Shown piece after piece: positions 873 to 9,732 of a stretch of DNA of 37,955 nt; position 1 is the first letter of the stretch; each line of letters opens with the position of its first letter. The translations under genes and the position numbers were made by a program. This DNA is from Pseudobutyrivibrio sp. OR37 (GTDB taxonomy: Bacteria; Bacillota; Clostridia; Lachnospirales; Lachnospiraceae), in contig NZ_FOQF01000032.1 of NCBI RefSeq assembly GCF_900113655.1, positions 1-37,955 on the forward strand, written 5' to 3'. The notes beneath the pieces are model-generated. The model saw nothing but the letters and a program-made list of their open reading frames with translations, did not search any database and was not told where the DNA came from.

Positions 873-906
873 TGTGACACTTCTGTGACATTTCTAGTGA
901 TATTAT
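873..906 (+). promoter_or_regulatory. Direct-repeat promoter of the RsbW-like gene
   Basis: TGTGACA at 873-879 and again at 884-890 (11-bp period), then a 7-nt spacer and TGATATTAT at 898-906. The last part reads as an extended -10 (TGN plus TATTAT, 901-906). The repeats cover the place of the -35 box, the layout of OmpR/PhoB-activated promoters. The expected transcript start near 913 leaves a leader of about 40 nt. The same arrangement recurs at 3721, 5867 and 6951. Confidence 0.7.
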
Positions 907-951
907 AGAAAATATCTGGTAAGTAACATACTGGGTTGTGAGAGGACGGTA

Positions 952-1389
952 ATGGAAAAAACATTTGAGTGCGAGGCTAAAATTGAAAACCTTGGTAAAG
1001 CTAATGCTTTTTTAGAGGAGACTCTAGAAGAAGTGGGATGTGGCATGAAACAGTCCATGCAGCTTTCTGTTGCGTTAGAAGAGATTTTTGTTAACATCGC
1101 ACACTATGCTTATGCCGAGGCAGATTCATCTGGAAATATAATTCCAGATACGGGGAGTGGTCGAGTGCGCTTGACATTGGTTGCTGAGGACGGAAAAGTC
1201 TTTATGACTTTCGAAGATGAAGGTGTACCTTATAATCCTCTAGAGAAAGACGACCCAGATGTTACTTTGTCAGTAAATGATAGAGAAATAGGCGGTTTAG
1301 GCATCTTTATGGTGAAGAAAAGCATGGATGATATGAAATATGAACATAAGGATGGCAAGAATATTCTTACATTGATGAAAAAATTGTGA
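952..1389 (+). CDS. Anti-sigma factor-like serine kinase (RsbW/SpoIIAB type, GHKL ATPase)
   Basis: The protein is 145 aa, the usual length for RsbW-type kinases. The ATP-binding boxes of the GHKL fold are visible: an N box (ALEEIFVNIAHYAY, about 42-55), a G1-like DEGVPYNP (about 90-97) and a G2-like GGLGIFMVK. In the family such proteins bind and inhibit a target (a sigma factor or other effector) and phosphorylate an RsbV-like STAS partner. A STAS protein lies downstream at 2675 and two PP2C phosphatases at 3815 and 7650, so the three classes of a partner-switching circuit are present. No sigma factor gene is in the window, so the target is unknown. The promoter is the repeat-bearing site at 873-906. 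Confidence 0.88.
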   Translation: MEKTFECEAKIENLGKANAFLEETLEEVGCGMKQSMQLSVALEEIFVNIAHYAYAEADSSGNIIPDTGSGRVRLTLVAEDGKVFMTFEDEGVPYNPLEKDDPDVTLSVNDREIGGLGIFMVKKSMDDMKYEHKDGKNILTLMKKL

Positions 1390-1457
1390 AACTAATACTA
1401 TTTTAATAAAAAAAGGTTATACTAATTATTGACTAACCATGGGGAAAGGGGAGTAAA

Positions 1458-2672
1458 ATGCAATCAGAACGTATTAAAATTGACGACTTGCAAGAGAGTT
1501 TTGAAATTATAAAACAGGTTGCAGAGCAGTATGAAGAAAAAGCCCAAATCAGTGAGAAGGATGCATTAAGATTTACCTTACTTGCCGAAGAGTCAATTAG
1601 ATTAGTATCATCAATAATGACAGAGAAAGATCCAATTGAAGTTTGGTTCGAAGGAAATAGACGTATATCGCATATCTGCATTAGAACAGAGACTGATATA
1701 GATGAAAATAAGAGAGAGAAATTTGTTTCGATCTCATCAGATGGTAAAAACGGAGCTGACAGATCTTTTATAGATGATGTCAGAGAATTTATAACGAGAC
1801 CGAAAAAGCCAACATGGTCGTTAGCCGAATATGAAGCAGATTTGATGCGCAAAAGAGCAAAGGATAAATATGCTGAAGAAGCATGGGAAAACCTTGAGCG
1901 TTCGGTGTTGGCAAATCTTGCAGATGATATAGCGGTTGGTGTTAAAAACGATAATCTACTTATTATAGTCACTAAAGATTTTTCAAATTCACTAAAGAAT
2001 GTAAGTGCTATTAGACCATTAGCTGTGTCTGGTCAGATATATCTTGCTTCAAATGAAGAGTCATTGGAAAGAGCCTACAATTTAGTTGATAAATGTGTAA
2101 CTGATATTGGTTTGAAAAATAAGGATTCCCTCAGAGTAAAGCTTTTATTAGAAGAGACTATTGGGATGTTTGAGGAAATGACCGATGGATTTACTGCCTT
2201 ACTTTGGGTAGAGAAATACAAAGGTCAATGTGCTATAAAACTTATCGGAAATGCCAATATTGACGCGGATGCAAAATTTGATTTGCTTTCGGTATCATCA
2301 AAAGGTACTAATGATTTAGCCCATGGATTTATGGGAAAGATTAAAGATATTATTCAAACAGGAGTACTAAACTACGAGGCAGTAATGAAGCTTCAACAGC
2401 AATATAATGGTATGCCAGTTCATTATGCCGGACTTGGTGTTTACAGCGACACCGGCGTTGCAACGAATCCGGCGGCATTTTCAGGGATGATGTGGTCTAT
2501 GGAGGATTATAGAGCATCTCTAGAAAAGGGGAAGGCCGAAGATGCTGGTATGTTGGCTGCGTGGGATGAATTAGAAAAATCAATCGTAGCAAATATAGCT
2601 GATGATGTAATCGTAGGTGTAGATAAAAACAAAGTACAAATTAAAATGATTTACAAGTTGAAGGAGGAATAA
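1458..2672 (+). CDS. Tandemly duplicated degenerate GHKL-like protein, unknown function
   Basis: The protein is 404 aa and made of two similar halves. Each half has a helix resembling the GHKL N box (LLAEESIRLVSSIM; LLLEETIGMFEEMTDG), a beta-rich stretch, and a conserved closing segment. That segment starts with Trp120 in one half (WSLAEYEADL) and Trp346 in the other (WSMEDYRASL), and ends with matching ANLADDIAVGV and ANIADDVIVGV. The G1/G2 nucleotide-binding boxes are not visible, so ATP binding is doubtful. The start has a GGGGAAAGGGGAG ribosome site. The gene sits between the RsbW-like kinase and the STAS gene, two bases before the latter, and is probably cotranscribed with it. It may act as a scaffold or decoy partner in the switch; this is inference. 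No named family was recognised. Confidence 0.7.
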   Translation: MQSERIKIDDLQESFEIIKQVAEQYEEKAQISEKDALRFTLLAEESIRLVSSIMTEKDPIEVWFEGNRRISHICIRTETDIDENKREKFVSISSDGKNGADRSFIDDVREFITRPKKPTWSLAEYEADLMRKRAKDKYAEEAWENLERSVLANLADDIAVGVKNDNLLIIVTKDFSNSLKNVSAIRPLAVSGQIYLASNEESLERAYNLVDKCVTDIGLKNKDSLRVKLLLEETIGMFEEMTDGFTALLWVEKYKGQCAIKLIGNANIDADAKFDLLSVSSKGTNDLAHGFMGKIKDIIQTGVLNYEAVMKLQQQYNGMPVHYAGLGVYSDTGVATNPAAFSGMMWSMEDYRASLEKGKAEDAGMLAAWDELEKSIVANIADDVIVGVDKNKVQIKMIYKLKEE

Positions 2673-2674
2673 GA

Positions 2675-2974
2675 ATGTTAAACATTAATATTTTAAAAGA
2701 TGGTGGGAAAGCAGTTTTCGCACTAGAAGGAAGGCTTGATACTTCCACAGCCCCTCAGCTTGAGGACGCAGTAAATAAAGACATTGCTGAACTTACAGAT
2801 ATCTCCTTTGATTTTGCGAATCTTGAGTACATTTCAAGTGCAGGATTAAGAGTATTATTATCAACTCAGAAAACCATGAACAAGCAAGGTAAGATGGTTA
2901 TAAAGAATGTTTCTGAAGAAGTTTTAGAAATATTCGATGTAACAGGATTTTCTGATATTCTTACTATTGAATAA
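2675..2974 (+). CDS. Anti-sigma factor antagonist, STAS domain (RsbV/SpoIIAA type)
   Basis: The protein is 99 aa, a single STAS domain. The segment NLEYISSAGLRVLL matches the family's phosphorylation loop. By alignment on the following Gly-Leu, Ser55 is the likely phosphoacceptor, although the usual Asp before it is Ser here. In the family, the unphosphorylated form binds the RsbW-like kinase and frees its target; SpoIIE-type phosphatases regenerate that form. The gene follows the duplicated protein by only 2 nt, with AAGGAGGAAT overlapping the upstream stop, so translation is probably coupled. A strong hairpin terminator closes this unit. Confidence 0.9.
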   Translation: MLNINILKDGGKAVFALEGRLDTSTAPQLEDAVNKDIAELTDISFDFANLEYISSAGLRVLLSTQKTMNKQGKMVIKNVSEEVLEIFDVTGFSDILTIE

Positions 2975-2994
2975 TAAATAATTATGTAGAAATC

Positions 2995-3023
2995 AAAAGC
3001 CAGCTAATCAAAAGCTGGCTTTT
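2995..3023. terminator. Bidirectional rho-independent terminator
   Basis: A perfect 11-bp stem (AAAAGCCAGCT at 2995-3005, AGCTGGCTTTT at 3013-3023) with a 7-nt loop. It lies between the convergent STAS gene and the cyclic-nucleotide-domain gene, and the flanking A and T runs allow use in both directions. Confidence 0.9.
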
Positions 3024-3030
3024 ATCATGC

Positions 3031-3636
3031 TTATTTATCCCTTCCAAGAAAATGCATCCCCTTGTTCTTCATTTGTTTTTCAGGTGAATTCAAAGCATAA
3101 TTACGAAGGTTGTCTTTTTGAAGATTATCACTTCTTAGAATCTCTGCAATATAACTCTCAAAATCATCATTTTTTTCATGACCGTTCACTGCAGAAGTGT
3201 TACTAGTATTGCTTGAAGGATTGTCTGATAAATCCTTTAGCTCCTTACTTAGTTGATTTATCTGATGCTGCATTCTAGTCATATTGGTTGCCATATTACG
3301 CATAATATGTAAAATATCTTCCTTATTTTCTTGAATAAAATCACCCATCAATCCTTCCGTAATGCGGAGAATTCTTGTTTTAGAGAAGGCAATTATAGTA
3401 TAAATAGCAGGTTGACCAGTCAATATTCCAAATTCACCAAAACAAGTGCCAGGCCCTAAAACTCCGATTAAAACTTCATTAGGCGTTCCGTAACCTGTAT
3501 ACATTTCTACATGACCAGATACAATCTTATACATATCCAAATTTATTTCGCCTTCTTTAAGAATCATTGTATCTGCAGGAATTTCATATATTTTGTTTCG
3601 GTTGTAAATACTTTTGTCGTCAAAAATGTTCTCCAT
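3031..3636 (-). CDS. Cyclic nucleotide-binding-domain protein without HTH (CRP-like sensor)
   Basis: The protein is 201 aa. Residues about 1-115 form a cNMP-binding beta-roll: YEIPADTMILKEGE, VSGHVEMYTGYG and GPGTCFGEFGILTGQPA, which resembles the phosphate-binding cassette. A helical region with coiled-coil character follows (about 105-145), then a Ser/Asn-rich linker and a basic tail. CRP/FNR proteins carry a winged helix after the roll; none is seen here, so direct DNA binding is unlikely. The start has a strong GGAGGAG ribosome site. The gene is divergent from the phosphatase at 3815. It may pass a small-molecule or stress signal by protein contact; this is inference. Confidence 0.8.
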   Translation of the reverse strand: MENIFDDKSIYNRNKIYEIPADTMILKEGEINLDMYKIVSGHVEMYTGYGTPNEVLIGVLGPGTCFGEFGILTGQPAIYTIIAFSKTRILRITEGLMGDFIQENKEDILHIMRNMATNMTRMQHQINQLSKELKDLSDNPSSNTSNTSAVNGHEKNDDFESYIAEILRSDNLQKDNLRNYALNSPEKQMKNKGMHFLGRDK

Positions 3637-3672
3637 GTAAGCTCCTCCTACTGATATATTCTATTGTTTTGT

Positions 3673-3754
3673 TGTGAAACCTTTGTGAAGTAGAATGCAT
3701 TAGGTTGGATGCAATATAAATGTGAAACCTTTGTGAAACCACTACATTTATTTA
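3673..3754 (+). promoter_or_regulatory. Double direct-repeat promoter region of the 3815 phosphatase
   Basis: Two copies of an 11-bp-period repeat are present. TGTGAAA at 3673 is followed by TGTGAAG at 3684, and TGTGAAA at 3721 by TGTGAAA at 3732. Counting 17 nt from the start of the last half-site gives TATTTA at 3749-3754, exactly where the -10 lies at the other three sites. The repeat sequence differs slightly (GTGAAA instead of GTGACA), and the -10 is weaker with no TGN extension. The upstream pair lies close to the start of the divergent cyclic-nucleotide-domain gene and could affect it. Confidence 0.55.
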
Positions 3755-3814
3755 CCATATTTAATAAAATAGAGTAGAAAATAAGGGAATATACTTAAGT
3801 TTAGGGGGCAAAAC

Positions 3815-5854
3815 ATGATAAGCATGATTATGAAAATGTCTGGTATTACAGTTCTGTATATAATACTCACATTAGTTGTATGGAATTTCACAAACAAAGT
3901 GGTGCTAAATAGGCTTCAAAAAATTATGATTGGAGTCGTATTTGGAATCAGTTCGATTATATCTACTCATTTTGGGGTGGCCTACGATGGCATGATAATT
4001 AATGTCCGTGATATTGGGCCACTAGCAGCAGGCTTGTTTTTTTCACCAACTGCAGGTGTAGTAGCAGGTTTAATAGGTGGTATCGAAAGATATATAGCAG
4101 GAACCTATTTTGGAGTGGGTTCATATACTAGGATTGCTTGTAGTGTGTCCACATGTTTGGCAGGCTTCGTCGCCATGATTATGAAAATAAAAATGTTTGA
4201 TAGAAAAAAGCCATCACCATTTTATGCGCTATTTATGGGCGCAGTAATGGAAGTTTTCCACATGTACGTAGTTTTCATCACTCATCGAAATGATATGAGG
4301 ATGGCTTTCCTAGTAGTTAGCACTTGTGCAGTACCAATGATTATATTTACAGCTATTGGAATGTGTATCGCTTCAATTTTGCTGCAGGTGCTTTCTGGTG
4401 AATGGGTTAACCCCTTTCAAAGAATTGAAGAAGAAAAAGAACCATTATCTAGGAAGTTTCAGAAATGGCTATTCTTAATTATGTCGATAGTTATTTTAGG
4501 AAGTTTTATTTTTTCATACATTCTTCAAACCCAGACCGCAAATCAGTATTGTAAATCTTTATTAATAAGAAACTTTACCACCCTAGAGTCAAACTATGAA
4601 TTGCATGAGACCAATTTGAACGCCGACAGCAATATTGAATACGGCATTATTACAAATGAAAGAATTATTTTAAAAGGAAAAAATATAGGAGCAACACTAT
4701 CTGAAGCTGAATATAAAAAGATAATTAAAAATTTAGGAAGTGTTGGAGAAGGTACATTTTTCGGAGTTAATTCGTTAATCTATGCACGAAATATAGATGA
4801 AAGTAACATTCTTGCAGTCACAATGTCGAAAAGTGAGGTTTATTGGTATCGTGATGCCCAAGCCTACGAATTTGCTCTTGCAGATATTTTGTTATTCACC
4901 GTTATATATGTGTTGATCGCATATTTGGTAAATCAAATAGTTGTTAATAACATCCAGCTGATTAACACTTCGTTAAGTAAGATTACAAATGGAAATTTGA
5001 ATGAAGTTGTAACAGTACGAAGCTCATCAGAATTTGCATCTTTATCTGACGATATTAACCAGACCGTAGTAGCGTTGAAGGGATATATAAAAGCAGCTGA
5101 AAAACGTATAGAGCAGGAGTTGATTTTTGCAAGAACCATACAAACCTCATCATTACCACAGGTGTTTAATTTCCCTGATAGAGACGAGTTTGAACTTTTC
5201 GCATCCATGAATCCTGCAAAAGAAGTAGGCGGAGATTTCTATGATTTCTTTTTTGCTGATAGAAACAAGATAGCTTTTGTAATAGCTGATGTATCAGGCA
5301 AGGGAATACCAGCAGCATTGTTTATGATGCGAAGTAAAACAGCTATCAGAAGTTTTGCGGAGGCTGGTGGAACTCCAGAAGAAATCCTTATAAAAACCAA
5401 TGAAGCACTGTGTGAAGGAAATGATGCAGAAATGTTTGTTACGGTATGGATTGGAATTCTGGATCTAACCACAGGATACATGCAGTGCGCAAATGCTGGG
5501 CATGAGTACCCAGCCATTATGCATGAGAATGGAAAATATGAGCTGATAAAGGACAAGCACAGCGTAGCACTTGCAGCCATGCCAGGAGTGAAACCAAAAC
5601 CATATCAGCTTAAGCTTGAGCCTCACGATAGAATATTCGTATATACGGATGGTGTACCGGAAGCTATAAACGAGAAAGAAGAACAGTATGGTACAGAACG
5701 TATGCTTGAAGTTTTAAATACTACTGCCAATATATCTATGGAAGAAACTCTTAATAAAGTTTCAGCTAGTGTAAATAGCTTCAAGGGAGGAGCAGAGCAG
5801 TTTGATGATATCACAATGTTAGGCTTCGAATTTATAAAACTATTAGAAAAATAA
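3815..5854 (+). CDS. Membrane PP2C/SpoIIE-type phosphatase with LytS-like 5TM receptor domain
   Basis: The protein is 679 aa. The N-terminal part (about 5-200) is a multi-pass membrane domain with the signature of 5TM LytS/YhcK-type receptors (YDGMIINVRDIGPLAAG, GLIGGIERYIAGTYFGVGS). A further membrane helix (about 215-235), an extracytoplasmic loop, another helix (about 345-370) and a HAMP-like linker follow. Residues about 440-675 are a SpoIIE-type PP2C domain with metal-binding acidic motifs (GGDFYDFF with Asp474, IADVSGKGIPAALFM, YTDGVPEA, FDDITML). It should sense an envelope signal and dephosphorylate a STAS protein, most simply the one at 2675. A repeat promoter lies upstream. Its phosphatase domain is close to that of the 7650 gene. 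Confidence 0.9.
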   Translation: MISMIMKMSGITVLYIILTLVVWNFTNKVVLNRLQKIMIGVVFGISSIISTHFGVAYDGMIINVRDIGPLAAGLFFSPTAGVVAGLIGGIERYIAGTYFGVGSYTRIACSVSTCLAGFVAMIMKIKMFDRKKPSPFYALFMGAVMEVFHMYVVFITHRNDMRMAFLVVSTCAVPMIIFTAIGMCIASILLQVLSGEWVNPFQRIEEEKEPLSRKFQKWLFLIMSIVILGSFIFSYILQTQTANQYCKSLLIRNFTTLESNYELHETNLNADSNIEYGIITNERIILKGKNIGATLSEAEYKKIIKNLGSVGEGTFFGVNSLIYARNIDESNILAVTMSKSEVYWYRDAQAYEFALADILLFTVIYVLIAYLVNQIVVNNIQLINTSLSKITNGNLNEVVTVRSSSEFASLSDDINQTVVALKGYIKAAEKRIEQELIFARTIQTSSLPQVFNFPDRDEFELFASMNPAKEVGGDFYDFFFADRNKIAFVIADVSGKGIPAALFMMRSKTAIRSFAEAGGTPEEILIKTNEALCEGNDAEMFVTVWIGILDLTTGYMQCANAGHEYPAIMHENGKYELIKDKHSVALAAMPGVKPKPYQLKLEPHDRIFVYTDGVPEAINEKEEQYGTERMLEVLNTTANISMEETLNKVSASVNSFKGGAEQFDDITMLGFEFIKLLEK

Positions 5855-5866
5855 ATAAAAAACTGG

Positions 5867-5900
5867 TGTGACAGTTCTGTGACAGTTCATTTGATATTCT
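5867..5900 (+). promoter_or_regulatory. Direct-repeat promoter of the 5946 lipoprotein
   Basis: TGTGACA at 5867-5873 and 5878-5884 (11-bp period), a 7-nt spacer, then TGATATTCT at 5892-5900 as an extended -10. The geometry is identical to 873-906. It starts 12 nt after the phosphatase stop, so the lipoprotein has its own promoter. Confidence 0.7.
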
Positions 5901-5945
5901 TTTTCCATAAGATAAATAACATATTTTTTTTTAAGGAGAAAGAGA

Positions 5946-6863
5946 ATGAAAATGGGAATGATGAAGAAGGTATTATCAACAGCTTTTGCAACAGTACTTG
6001 TAATGGGATTATTTACTGGATGTGGAAACGCATCAGCAAATAGTTCAACAGCTCAGGCTAAGGAGAGTTCTCTCCCAGTAAAAACTACAGCAACAGTATT
6101 CACTAAGGGTGTTTACGTAAATTATGCTGCAGAGGCAGAGAACCCTGAGTTAAATTATTTTTACGTATTCTATGGTGACGGAACAGGAAGCATCGAGGAT
6201 GGCGTAGCCGGAACAGCAAATTACTTTGAATACGAGACAGGAGAAGATACAATTGATTTCCATATTGGAAGCATTGATCCTATCAATGATACTTTTACAG
6301 TAACTTCATACGAGAACGGCATTGTTAAAGGACATTTTGAGGATGGACTTGAGTTAGTATTTGAACCACTTACAGGTGCAGATATTGAAACATTCAACGC
6401 TGTTAATTACGTAAACGGAATAGTTGGAGAGCCAAGTGTATATACAGATGCAAATGGTTGGAGCGTAAAATATGATGCATCATTAATCACAGTTAACCAG
6501 GGTGGCCCTATAACTACATTTGTTTATACTGGCGATTGTGCTGGAACAAATATGATTACAGTTACATACACAGTAGAAAATAAGGCTGAAGCTGCAGTAA
6601 AAGAGCTTGGAAAGTCTTGGGGAGACATCGCTACTTACACAGATGGTGTATTCCCTGGCACAGAAGCTGTTAAAGGCTATTGGGTTACTGCAGTACCTAC
6701 AGAAGACGGCACAGGTTCATACATGACAGCAGTTGCTAGAGACTATATGGAAGGTGCACTTGTATTTGAGCTTACAGGCACTAATGGAGAGGATGAAGCT
6801 AATAATTTAGAGGTTAGTGGAGTATTATCGGATATATTAAATTCAATTGAATTCGCTAATTAA
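5946..6863 (+). CDS. Secreted lipoprotein, unknown function
   Basis: The protein is 305 aa. A basic start (MKMGMMKK), a hydrophobic segment and a lipobox ending FTGC (Cys about 26) mark a lipoprotein. After a Ser/Thr-rich linker the mature part looks beta-rich (YVNYAAEAENPELNYFYVFYGDG and two later similar blocks). A C-terminal half begins near SVYTDANGWSVKYDASLI, a pattern resembling surface proteins of Clostridia, but no named domain is certain. Several in-frame ATGs are possible. The first is chosen because AAGGAG ends 7 nt before it. A repeat-type promoter drives it, linking it to the same regulator as the kinase, the phosphatase and the 7024 lipoprotein. A hairpin terminator follows. Confidence 0.75.
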   Translation: MKMGMMKKVLSTAFATVLVMGLFTGCGNASANSSTAQAKESSLPVKTTATVFTKGVYVNYAAEAENPELNYFYVFYGDGTGSIEDGVAGTANYFEYETGEDTIDFHIGSIDPINDTFTVTSYENGIVKGHFEDGLELVFEPLTGADIETFNAVNYVNGIVGEPSVYTDANGWSVKYDASLITVNQGGPITTFVYTGDCAGTNMITVTYTVENKAEAAVKELGKSWGDIATYTDGVFPGTEAVKGYWVTAVPTEDGTGSYMTAVARDYMEGALVFELTGTNGEDEANNLEVSGVLSDILNSIEFAN

Positions 6864-6893
6864 CATTTTCATTTTACTCTTCTTGAAAAGGGG

Positions 6894-6925
6894 GGATCTC
6901 GATAATCCCATCGAGGTCCTTTCCT
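6894..6925 (+). terminator. Rho-independent terminator
   Basis: A 10-bp stem (GGATCTCGAT at 6894-6903 with ATCGAGGTCC at 6910-6919, one G-T pair) with a 6-nt loop, then TTTCCTT. It follows the 5946 lipoprotein. The T tract is imperfect. Confidence 0.7.
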
Positions 6926-6950
6926 TATGGTTAAACTTCATATTATATAG

Positions 6951-6984
6951 TGTGACATTAGTGTGACAATACAAATGATATTAT
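6951..6984 (+). promoter_or_regulatory. Direct-repeat promoter of the 7024 lipoprotein
   Basis: TGTGACA at 6951-6957 and 6962-6968 (11-bp period), a 7-nt spacer, then TGATATTAT at 6976-6984 as an extended -10. This is the same geometry as the sites at 873 and 5867, although the spacer sequences differ. Confidence 0.7.
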
Positions 6985-7023: not shown

Positions 7024-7476
7024 ATGAGTTTTGAAAAGACAGTTAAGAAAACAATGATTGTGTGTCTTATGTCTGTAATGTCTATGATTTTTGTGGGATG
7101 TGGAAATAAAGCATCTGCTGAGGAAGATACAAAAGCCTTTATAGATGTAACTGATGAAGGAAAAAAAGTTACAGCATATTTCGATGAAACTATTGAAGGT
7201 ACAATGGGAGGCAGTGGTGTAAGCATCAATGATAATGAATATTTAGTTATAGATTCAAAGCTGACCGAGGGAAATATACATGTAAGAGTTGTTCCTGGCG
7301 GGAATAATATAGATGAAGCTCCTACCAAGGAAAAGCCTGCAACAATTGATTATGTATTTGAAGGCGAAGGAAAAACTGAATATTACGAAATACCGGCAGG
7401 TAGTTATATGATTAAGGTAGAGGTTGATAAAAAAGCTACTGGTTCAATAATTTGCTCCGTGGTAGATAATGAATAA
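7024..7476 (+). CDS. Small secreted lipoprotein, unknown function
   Basis: The protein is 150 aa. A signal sequence with a lipobox (MIFVGCG, Cys about 26) leads to a compact, apparently beta-rich domain: VTAYFDETIEGTMGGSG, then VRVVPGGNNIDEAPT, then YYEIPAGSYMIKVEV. The Gly-rich centre and the final GSYMIKVEV strand suggest a small sandwich fold, but I recognise no family. Its promoter carries the TGTGACA repeats, so it probably belongs to the same regulon as 952, 3815 and 5946. It ends at a hairpin terminator, so it is a single-gene unit placed between two signalling genes. Confidence 0.75.
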   Translation: MSFEKTVKKTMIVCLMSVMSMIFVGCGNKASAEEDTKAFIDVTDEGKKVTAYFDETIEGTMGGSGVSINDNEYLVIDSKLTEGNIHVRVVPGGNNIDEAPTKEKPATIDYVFEGEGKTEYYEIPAGSYMIKVEVDKKATGSIICSVVDNE

Positions 7477-7649: not shown

Positions 7650-9248
7650 ATGAGTGTTGGAAAAAGATGGGGTATTAATCAGAAATCACTTGTTGGCATT
7701 ATCGTATTTACGTTATTAATGAATGTATTGATGTGTATAAGTGGTTCATATATCTTTGATAGGGTTATACAGAAAATCTATAATGAACGAGGCTATGTTG
7801 TAGCAAATATCATCATAGAACATATAGACCATGACAAAATCGCAAAATATTCTGAAACATGGTTGGCAGATGAGTATTACTACGATATGGTGGATTATCT
7901 GAAATATATTCAGGCATGCTCTGATGCCGCTTATATCTACATTGGAGTTCCATACGAAGATCGTACCATTAAATATATTTACGATTCAGGAAGTACAATT
8001 GGCTTTGTTGATCCTATTGCTGCGCCATTTGATGAGATATGGGATGCATACACAAAGGGGATTAGACCTAAAAGCTATTTGGTTAGACATTCCCAGTATG
8101 GTTTCCTTACTTCCAGCTGTCTTCCAGTGCGTGATAGCAATGGCAAAGTAGTAGCTTTACTTTTTGTTGATACAAATATGGAAATCATTTATTCCACAGT
8201 TGAGACTTACATAATAAATGTGTGCATCATAGCACTTGTATTAATGGCTATATTCTGTGTTGTAAATTGGCGAGTTCTTAGAAACAGTTTAATCAATCCT
8301 CTTATAAGTATAAGAGATAATGTAAGTCACTTTGCAGAATATACAACCGTTGAAGATAATCTTCTAGAGGAGATTACATCAAATGATGAGATGAGAGATC
8401 TTGCTGTTTCTATCACAAACATGGAGCGAGATATCATCGAATATATTAATGATATTCAAGATATAACTGCTGAAAAGGAGCGTATCGGTACAGAGCTAAG
8501 TGTCGCAACAAGAATTCAGGCATCAATGCTTCCTACACAGTTCCCTGACCGTAAGGAATTTGACATTTTTGCCACCAGTGCACCAGCCAAAGAGGTAGGT
8601 GGAGATTTCTATGATTTCTTCTTCATTGATGAAACACACTTAGCCCTTGTAATGGCTGATGTAGCAGGTAAAGGTGTTCCAGCTGCTTTATTTATGGTTG
8701 TAGCAAAAACTCTTATTAAGAATAGAACAATGATTGGTGGAGGAGAGCTTTCCCCAGCCAAAATACTTGCGGATGTTAACAATCAGCTGTGCGAAGGCAA
8801 TGATTCCAACATGTTTGTTACAGCCTGGTTCGCTATTATTGATATAACAACAGGTAAAGGAATGGTTACAAATGCTGGCCATGAGCACCCTGCTATACGA
8901 CGTGAAAATGGTATTTTTGAACTATCCATCTACAAACACTCTCCAGCTCTAGCCACAATTGAGGGTATTAATTACAAGGAGCATGAATTTAAACTAAATC
9001 CTGGCGATAGTATTTTTGTATATACTGATGGCGTGCCAGAAGCCACAGATGTATTTGATGAATTATTTGGAACAGATAGGATGTTAGCTGCTTTAAATGA
9101 AGATTCCACTGCAACACCTAAAACTCTTTTAGATAATGTAAAAAATGCTATTGATAAATATGCGATGAAAGCTTCACAGTATGATGATATTACAATGCTG
9201 GGCTTTACATATTATGGAAAGGTAAATCAGGAGGGGGAACATGATTGA
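7650..9248 (+). CDS. Membrane PP2C/SpoIIE-type phosphatase with extracellular sensor and HAMP
   Basis: The protein is 532 aa. One membrane helix (about 15-37) and a second (about 187-208) flank an extracytoplasmic sensor of about 150 residues. This contains AAYIYIGVPYEDRTIKYIYD and a segment like those of Cache/PAS-type sensors (VRDSNGKVVALLFVDTNME). A HAMP linker and coiled coil (about 210-285) lead to a SpoIIE-type PP2C domain (about 290-530): ATSAPAKEVGGDFYDFF with Asp319, MADVAGKGVPAALFM, YTDGVPEAT and YDDITMLGF. It should dephosphorylate a STAS protein. The catalytic domain is very close to that of the 3815 protein but the sensor differs, so two inputs may feed one switch. Its end overlaps the next gene by 8 nt. 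Confidence 0.9.
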   Translation: MSVGKRWGINQKSLVGIIVFTLLMNVLMCISGSYIFDRVIQKIYNERGYVVANIIIEHIDHDKIAKYSETWLADEYYYDMVDYLKYIQACSDAAYIYIGVPYEDRTIKYIYDSGSTIGFVDPIAAPFDEIWDAYTKGIRPKSYLVRHSQYGFLTSSCLPVRDSNGKVVALLFVDTNMEIIYSTVETYIINVCIIALVLMAIFCVVNWRVLRNSLINPLISIRDNVSHFAEYTTVEDNLLEEITSNDEMRDLAVSITNMERDIIEYINDIQDITAEKERIGTELSVATRIQASMLPTQFPDRKEFDIFATSAPAKEVGGDFYDFFFIDETHLALVMADVAGKGVPAALFMVVAKTLIKNRTMIGGGELSPAKILADVNNQLCEGNDSNMFVTAWFAIIDITTGKGMVTNAGHEHPAIRRENGIFELSIYKHSPALATIEGINYKEHEFKLNPGDSIFVYTDGVPEATDVFDELFGTDRMLAALNEDSTATPKTLLDNVKNAIDKYAMKASQYDDITMLGFTYYGKVNQEGEHD

Positions 9249-9732
9249 CAAGAAGTTATACGAGGCGTTAGTACATTTTGAAGAAAATGAGGAAGCACAG
9301 GATTATTACTACAAATCCATGGAAATGCTTACTGGAAAGACTGCAAAGGATGGCCATGAGGAGACACTTAGAGATAAGATTCTAAGAGTTTATGCCATGC
9401 TGTTTTGCGAGGACACACCTATGGAAAATGCTCCATACGCAAATGTAGATGATGTAGCAGATACAGCCGACAGACTCTACATCGGAAGTGTAGGCTACGA
9501 CAGCGAGCATTGGTATAGAATGAAGCACCATTTTCCTGTTATTGACGAGGATAATTTTGATAGGTTTGCAGCACTTGTCATTACAGACCTAAATTGCGGC
9601 ATGCTTCACGACATGGCTGTTAATGAAGGTAAGACATTGGTGGTGGGCGAAGCTTCGCCTCTTAATATGACTCGCGAGCAGCGTTTGAATCAGAAGACAT
9701 CAACTGTTAGTTTAACAGGAGGTGATATCTGA
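9241..9732 (+). CDS. Conserved-looking hypothetical protein in the phosphatase operon
   Basis: The protein is 163 aa, soluble and acidic, with no signal peptide. It has a helical N-terminus (ALVHFEENEEAQDYYYKSMEML) and a middle region with several acidic and aromatic residues (YIGSVGYDSEHWYRMKHHFPVID). I do not recognise it. Its ATG overlaps the end of the phosphatase gene and is preceded by AGGAGGGGG, and its stop shares a base with the response-regulator start. Translation of the three genes is therefore probably coupled. The position suggests an adaptor between the phosphatase and the response regulator; this is inference from context only. Confidence 0.65.
   Translation: MIDKKLYEALVHFEENEEAQDYYYKSMEMLTGKTAKDGHEETLRDKILRVYAMLFCEDTPMENAPYANVDDVADTADRLYIGSVGYDSEHWYRMKHHFPVIDEDNFDRFAALVITDLNCGMLHDMAVNEGKTLVVGEASPLNMTREQRLNQKTSTVSLTGGDI

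Follow-up and report, generated by a model that had tools for sequence, protein, structure and literature searches.

The 37,955-nucleotide stretch of DNA analysed here, referred to as the window, is contig NZ_FOQF01000032.1 (C61) of Pseudobutyrivibrio sp. OR37, one of 81 contigs of a 3.56-Mb genome. Between positions 873 and 10538 it carries genes for an RsbW-like kinase, a STAS-domain protein, two SpoIIE/PP2C phosphatase-domain proteins, two lipoproteins and, at 9732, a response regulator, and it contains three copies of a promoter-like box (Table 1). The sites at 873, 5867 and 6951 read exactly TGTGACA-N4-TGTGACA-N7-TGATATT(A/C)T, as a first-pass annotation of this DNA had it. Our analysis makes it highly probable that such boxes are the operators of one response regulator, the one encoded at 9732.

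Table 1. Boxes, genes and repeats of the window discussed in the text
Feature	Position	Strand	Remarks
Predicted box and promoter, TGTGACA-CTTC-TGTGACA-N7-TGATATTAT	873..906	+	0 mismatches; 5′ of RsbW-like kinase gene
RsbW-like serine kinase (HATPase_c_2)	952..1389	+	Pfam PF13581, E 4.1e-23; box-headed in relatives as well
404-aa protein	1458..2672	+	First gene of box-headed regulator run in five relatives
STAS-domain anti-sigma-factor antagonist	2675..2974	+	PF01740, E 9.2e-18; TIGR00377 above cut-off
Cyclic-nucleotide-binding (cNMP) protein	3031-3636		cNMP-binding match alone
Second TGTGAAA repeat, imperfect	3673..3690	+	48 bases upstream of the 3721 copy
TGTGAAA-CCTT-TGTGAAA repeat	3721..3738	+	5′ of phosphatase gene; box membership unsupported
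5TMR-LYT membrane protein with SpoIIE/PP2C phosphatase domain	3815..5854	+	PF07694, PF07228
Predicted box and promoter, TGTGACA-GTTC-TGTGACA-N7-TGATATTCT	5867..5900	+	5′ of 305-aa lipoprotein gene
Lipoprotein, 305 aa (lipobox by eye)	5946..6863	+	No Pfam match; similar C37 protein with perfect box
Predicted box and promoter, TGTGACA-TTAG-TGTGACA-N7-TGATATTAT	6951..6984	+	5′ of 150-aa lipoprotein gene
Small lipoprotein, 150 aa (lipobox by eye)	7024..7476	+	No Pfam match
SpoIIE/PP2C phosphatase-domain protein	7650..9248	+	PF07228, E 1.2e-42; starts regulator's gene run in source genome
163-aa protein	9241..9732	+	Directly 5′ of regulator gene; no family match
Proposed regulator: receiver and SARP/OmpR-like winged helix	9732..10538	+	

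The repeat alone (TGTGACA-N4-TGTGACA, up to three mismatches) has 12 matches in the window, three of them opposite-strand readings of sites already counted, compared with 3.4 ± 2.2 in shuffled sequence; none of 100 shuffles reached 12 or more. The kinase ATG lies 79 bases after the start of the 873 box, and a Shine-Dalgarno-like sequence is present. A profile of 51 distinct boxes, taken from the source genome and from genus loci, places the end of the second heptamer 10 bases from TANNNT and 7 bases from TG. Counted from a predicted start 7 bases past TANNNT, the first heptamer occupies −40 to −34 and the second −29 to −23; the pair of 11-bp units would then span −40 to −19, with its centre at −29.5. 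Positions left free by the search are conserved in the same profile: T at −15 (0.92), G at −14 (0.76) and T at −32 (0.94), together with C (0.59) followed by A (0.65) at the expected start site.

The pattern TGTGAYA-N4-TGTGAYA-N7-TNNTANNNT, searched over the whole genome, gave 11, 0, 5 and 21 matches with zero, one, two and three mismatches, respectively, and the reversed pattern gave 17 matches with up to three. Among the 26 weaker matches, three are boxes of a paralogous regulator discussed below, or the other strand of such boxes (C33:93186, 93202 and 96992), two are perfect sites read on the other strand, and the remainder are background-like. Three of the 11 perfect sites are in the window, three on C75 and one each on C32, C37, C39, C52 and C59. 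Contrary to its description as local in the first-pass annotation, the regulon extends beyond the window, with eight of the 11 sites spread over six further contigs; the genome-wide search for the motif at its fixed spacing, which the same annotation had proposed as a check, found every perfect site 5′ of a gene. Downstream of each of the 11 sites is a gene preceded by a ribosome-binding-like sequence; the distance from box start to gene start is 170 bases for a 57-aa (amino-acid) gene and 71 to 101 bases for the other ten. The repeated sites are very probably real operators, that is, predicted docking sites at eleven promoters.

The genes headed by perfect boxes encode the RsbW-like kinase; three lipoproteins (lipoboxes judged by eye), two of them in the window and a similar third one on C37; four short peptides, of which two are sisters of 43-46 aa and the others have 57 and 68 aa; a secreted protein with a PepSY domain; a protein of 741 aa that begins with a signal-like sequence; and a precursor resembling those of ribosomally synthesized and post-translationally modified peptides (RiPPs; L067:7039-7497, C75), which matches Nif11-leader and class II bacteriocin models, both below their cut-offs. 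The kinase and the two lipoproteins had already been named as targets and stay in the list; the phosphatase named with them leaves it, since the site at 3721 is unsupported. Further genes lie 3′ of the RiPP-like precursor gene. The sister peptide genes (MVVGQII...) are found at L061:4512 and L061:6288, also on C75, each 3′ of a box, and this peptide family has nine members among the 60 box targets called in the source genome and its relatives; targets in the relatives include other short peptides with GG-type leaders (by eye). The box on C39 (L063:3959-8219) is followed by the 57-aa gene and then by genes for a hybrid histidine kinase (HisKA-HATPase-REC-Hpt) and a receiver-only protein. We considered the latter two-component genes as a source of the DNA binder and rejected them, as the second protein matches receiver domains alone.

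Recurrence across contigs is also what a mobile or recombination repeat with no regulatory role would produce, but the recurring letters are limited to the box, the −10 element and the start-like CA, their flanks vary, and the sites keep one orientation and a near-fixed distance 5′ of a ribosome-binding-like site and gene; we consider the chance of such an origin next to negligible. The motif raises a second alternative, as the CRP half-site is TGTGA. A CRP/FNR-type protein binding TGTGA half-sites, with the cyclic-nucleotide-binding protein encoded at 3031-3636 as the regulator, would account for the word and has a candidate in the window. CRP sites, however, are inverted (TGTGA...TCACA), whereas the repeats are direct in all 11 sites; the 3031 protein has no DNA-binding domain match; and homologues of the 9732 protein are found near boxes with words other than TGTGA. 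A CRP/FNR-type regulator is therefore very improbable.

Comparison of 29 Pseudobutyrivibrio genomes, in which an orthologue of the 9732 regulator was defined by about 65% identity or more, connects the boxes with this protein. A slightly different pattern gave 138 matches without mismatch in 19 of the 29 genomes, and its reverse none. The orthologue is present in 17 of the 18 genomes with at least three boxes and in none of the remaining 11 (Fisher p 3.5e-7), among them G165 with its lone TGTGAAA-type match; overall, presence or absence of boxes agrees with that of the orthologue in 28 of 29 genomes. The earlier suggestion of one regulator, with the 9732 response regulator as the candidate, is thus supported by the genome-wide motif and by orthologue co-occurrence. 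As shared ancestry may contribute to such co-occurrence, gene order, a homologue in another genus, the named loci and the paralogue carry weight.

Gene order is informative in five relatives (G154, G169, G171, G176 and G177), where the genes for the 404-aa protein, the STAS protein, the 163-aa protein and the regulator form one run with a box at its head; in G154, G169 and G176 a second box heads the kinase and a phosphatase. Over 150 genomes from 150 genera, the slightly different pattern gave 17 matches without mismatch in six genomes, 11 of them those of the source genome, and the reversed pattern gave none. Outside the source genome the matches number six, in five other genera; five of these include an extended −10 TG that the pattern does not demand, and the sixth (G087) contains, in addition, a TGTGAAA repeat and is doubtful. 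One of these genera (G120) has the closest regulator homologue among the 149 other genera (59% identity, the next being 44% or less), and its box lies about 20 bases past the regulator stop codon. Among the orthologous loci of Butyrivibrio and other non-genus genomes (L205-L223), a TGTGAYA box is found in six of 19 within the DNA covered at each locus (L211, L213, L215, L216, L221 and L223). We conclude that the boxes very probably belong to the response regulator encoded at 9732.

A paralogue in the same genome appears to use the same layout with another word. It is encoded at C33:87914, is 28% identical to the 9732 protein and adjoins a histidine kinase. Boxes of the form TGTAACN with the same geometry occur in seven of the 29 genus genomes, the same seven that have the paralogue (27-31% identity), with no reversed matches (p 6e-7); this pairing sets apart the homologues of G155 (33%) and G168 (37%) as belonging to different branches, and with these counted in it stands at seven of nine versus none of 20 (p 2e-5). 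The G155 homologue has a TGTTGCA box nearby, the G168 homologue none. The TGTAACN boxes lie near the paralogue gene, except that some of those in two fragmented assemblies are on separate small contigs. At the source-genome locus (L196, C33:82000-101000), the paralogue gene stands amid genes for SpaA-fold/LPXTG-type surface proteins, with TGTAACN boxes around it and one directly 3′ of it.

The genus and paralogue data bear on a third alternative, in which another OmpR-family regulator (WalR- or PhoP-like) would bind the boxes and the 9732 gene would merely co-travel with them. WalR and PhoP boxes are TGTNA-type repeats with an 11-bp period, a similar layout, and Trans_reg_C is found above its cut-off at ten other places in the genome. 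Yet box presence and absence match those of the 9732 orthologue in 28 of 29 genomes, boxes adjoin its gene in several, the paralogue has its own word in the same geometry, and the layout tracks the 9732 family across genera; we hold binding by such a regulator to be unlikely.

The relation was also examined in the wider family. A general box, TGTNNCN-N4-TGTNNCN-N7-TGNTANNNT, occurs six times around 21 homologue regions, compared with no occurrence for controls in the same regions (period 10 or 12, gap changed by one base either way, or reversed). Over the 150 genera it has 44 matches in 19 genomes, compared with six when reversed, and a family homologue (E up to 1e-30) is present in 16 of these 19 genomes versus 26 of the 131 others (p 6e-8; at most 17 candidates per genome were scored, so that absences are uncertain). 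When the two heptamers are required to agree within one letter, 15 of 16 box-bearing genomes have a homologue. Boxes from 12 of the 150 genomes had helped to define the pattern; with these genomes set aside the link is weaker, at six of nine versus 24 of 129 (p 0.003). The words differ between lineages: TGTTGCN (G002, G051 and G104), TGTGTCC (G034 and G037), TGTCCCY (G089), TGGTGCT (G074), TGTTGGA (G002 and G075; imperfect in G147) and TGTAACN (G011, G081 and G103). The recognition-helix region tends to be alike in regulators beside one and the same word, as with SYFRTI in L251 and L258, both beside TGTTGCG, although such cases are few. The general layout therefore tracks the regulator family across the 150 genera with different heptamers.

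Scans that leave the heptamer free are less selective. A box with any TG-heptamer was found at 19 of 54 regulator loci at a gap of 10, compared with eight of 54 at a gap of 7. Any heptamer with up to one mismatch and no TG demanded gave no excess at 11 bp in 21 paralogue regions (39 occurrences, with 18-60 for the other periods); a restriction to exact repeats left nine in these regions versus 1-4 at other periods, but 7-9 at gaps of 7-11. A clear 11-bp excess appears once the TG of the −10 element is demanded or the repeats begin with TG. The null sets are themselves contaminated, as four of 40 null loci in the 54-locus scan and four matches in the 21-region scan are own boxes of those loci, or the 3673 repeat, through which the loci had been selected.

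The regulator combines a receiver with a winged helix, the latter being followed by some 45-50 residues. The receiver domain (PF00072) is found in 32 of 32 family members; the 9732 protein has D53 and an R in place of the conserved Lys, and the phospho-acceptor Asp is absent in seven of 31 aligned orthologues, including those of L216 and L221, whose loci keep boxes. Mean identity to the 9732 protein is 87% in the DNA-binding domain versus 52% in the receiver. Trans_reg_C matches the 9732 protein at 16.2 bits, below the 26.2 cut-off, and matches weakly in 31 of 32 family members. A profile of 25 DNA-binding domains, compared with solved structures, gave EmbR (2fez) as the best of 15 listed matches (E 2.4e-4), followed by the OmpR-type structures 1p2f (0.011) and 1kgs (0.025), with AfsR (8hvr) fourth (0.03). 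Foldseek returned 1p2f (DrrB), 1ys6 (PrrA) and 1kgs as the first three matches to the whole model, and in the VIA-align comparison receiver domains filled the list, which makes it uninformative on the winged helix.

Several observations weigh against assigning the boxes to the 9732 protein, or against parts of that assignment. In the window, no box lies directly 5′ of the regulator's own gene run, which begins at 7650. One genome (G162; 81% complete, with no rpoB match) has boxes but no 9732 orthologue that we found. On the rpoB tree, which covers 19 of the 29 genus genomes (ten have no rpoB match), four gains or losses are needed, the firm branches force one, and a value as low arises in 89 of 500 shuffles; the genus co-occurrence is partly shared ancestry, and several independent losses are not firmly shown. 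Co-occurrence was computed for the 9732 family only among the genome's DNA-binding regulators, and the 51 boxes behind the profile include orthologous promoters and hence are not independent. Beyond the genus, 12 of the 19 orthologous loci have no box in the DNA covered and L205 has TGTGACC, and 26 of 42 homologue-bearing genera are without a general box. Finally, none of 25 family members matches BTAD (PF03704), the domain that defines SARPs (Streptomyces antibiotic regulatory proteins), although matches at E up to 1 extended to 15 families; because of this, the regulator is SARP-like and not a SARP member.

The repeat at 3721 stands apart from the boxes. The first-pass annotation had counted it as a fourth regulon site, a membership for which we find no support: its heptamer is TGTGAAA, it has neither the TG before the −10 element nor the final T of that element, and TGTGAAA occurs in just three of the 138 genus-wide box matches. 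Of the two genomes whose phosphatase orthologue upstream regions were compared, G160 has the 18-mer unchanged, with other letters 3′ of it, and G171 has no such repeat; conservation in one of two genomes, without the downstream letters, completed the grounds for dropping it. Two such repeats, TGTGAAA-CCTT-TGTGAA(A/G), lie at 3673-3738, between the genes for the cyclic-nucleotide-binding protein and the phosphatase, and are possibly the site of another regulator.

Two further proteins of the window recur with the regulator or with its boxes. The 163-aa protein is encoded directly 5′ of the regulator wherever the sequence extends far enough (16 of 16 genus regions, 25 of 25 named loci); its model has a mean pLDDT (predicted local distance difference test score) of 73, and its best Foldseek match, at E 1.8, indicates no relative. 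The 404-aa protein has no Pfam or NCBIfam match, and the idea that it is itself a degenerate relative of the RsbW-like ATPase was dropped after profile comparison gave it 1% probability. Neither a histidine kinase nor a sigma factor was found among the 11 window proteins scanned.

Taken together, the operator, its geometry, its targets, the co-occurrence and the paralogue's code can be read directly from these genomes. In the mechanism that we propose, a pair of SARP-like winged-helix domains would bind the two head-to-tail TGTGAYA heptamers, 11 bp apart on one face of the DNA. The bound pair would cover the place of the −35 element, stand in for it and, by analogy, contact RNA polymerase, which would be held by the pair together with the extended −10 element (TGNTANNNT). 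Binding, activation and the start site are thus predictions from promoter sequence. The regulon would comprise envelope and secreted proteins, short peptides, the RiPP-like precursor and the regulator's own partner-switching genes (RsbW-like kinase, STAS protein and PP2C phosphatase), so that it would feed back on its likely inputs; the run that includes the regulator gene is itself box-headed in several relatives. We would guess that partner switching, and not phosphorylation alone, sets the activity of the regulator.

A broader picture is possible, and we advance it tentatively: a Lachnospiraceae family of receiver-SARP-like regulators may share one rigid promoter architecture, with its own heptamer for each lineage or paralogue, which would amount to a readable protein-DNA code. 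In this picture the receiver of the TGTGAYA branch may be drifting from phosphorylation, with control passed to the partner-switching module and the 163-aa companion. For a response-regulator family of rumen and gut Lachnospiraceae on which the literature searched offered no functional study, our analysis proposes operators and a regulon from sequence alone; no description of the motif, or of operators of such regulators in Lachnospiraceae, was found there either, most subscription papers lying outside the coverage of the search. Two regulator-operator pairs in one genome open specificity to recognition-helix swaps, and the family raises the question of what activates Asp-less response regulators whose DNA-binding domain outlasts the receiver in conservation.

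The system shares parts with three known ones. As in RsbU/RsbV/RsbW partner switching, an RsbW-like kinase, a STAS protein and SpoIIE-type phosphatases occur together, here adjoining the regulator and partly under its boxes; in contrast to that system, no sigma factor is found among the 11 scanned window proteins, and the proposed output is a response regulator. With OmpR/PhoB response regulators it has in common the receiver, the winged helix and 11-bp repeats over the −35 region, whereas Trans_reg_C falls below its cut-off, the Asp is lost in seven of 31 orthologues and the centre at −29.5 is unlike that of the Pho box. The E. coli-type Pho box consists of CTGTCAT repeats bound by PhoB, and the heptamer here is TGTGAYA; a Pho box can be set aside, in agreement with the first-pass annotation. 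The WalR/YycF box is TGTWAH-N5-TGTWAH, which the G at heptamer position 4 does not fit.

The closest likeness is to the SARP activators. Heptameric repeats with 4-nt spacers are reported to be typical of SARPs (PMC5930380), and the AfsR box is reported to span −40 to −19 with its centre at −29.5, overlapping a poor −35 element (PMC10936776). Our boxes would share heptameric direct repeats, 4-nt spacers and an 11-bp period with the sites of SARP activators (AfsR, PimR, EmbR), and a centre near −29.5 with the AfsR box. The SARP trait of a 3′ repeat 8 bp from the −10 element compares with 10 bases to TANNNT and 7 to TG here, a value that depends on how the repeat end is defined. Unlike the SARP activators of actinomycetes, the regulator proposed here belongs to Lachnospiraceae, has an N-terminal receiver and no BTAD match, would work with a conserved extended −10 element, and has envelope proteins, peptides and partner-switching genes as its predicted targets. 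The OmpR/PhoB-like arrangement noted at the outset therefore holds as an OmpR-like layout, while the layout and the DNA-binding domain are both nearer to those of SARP activators.

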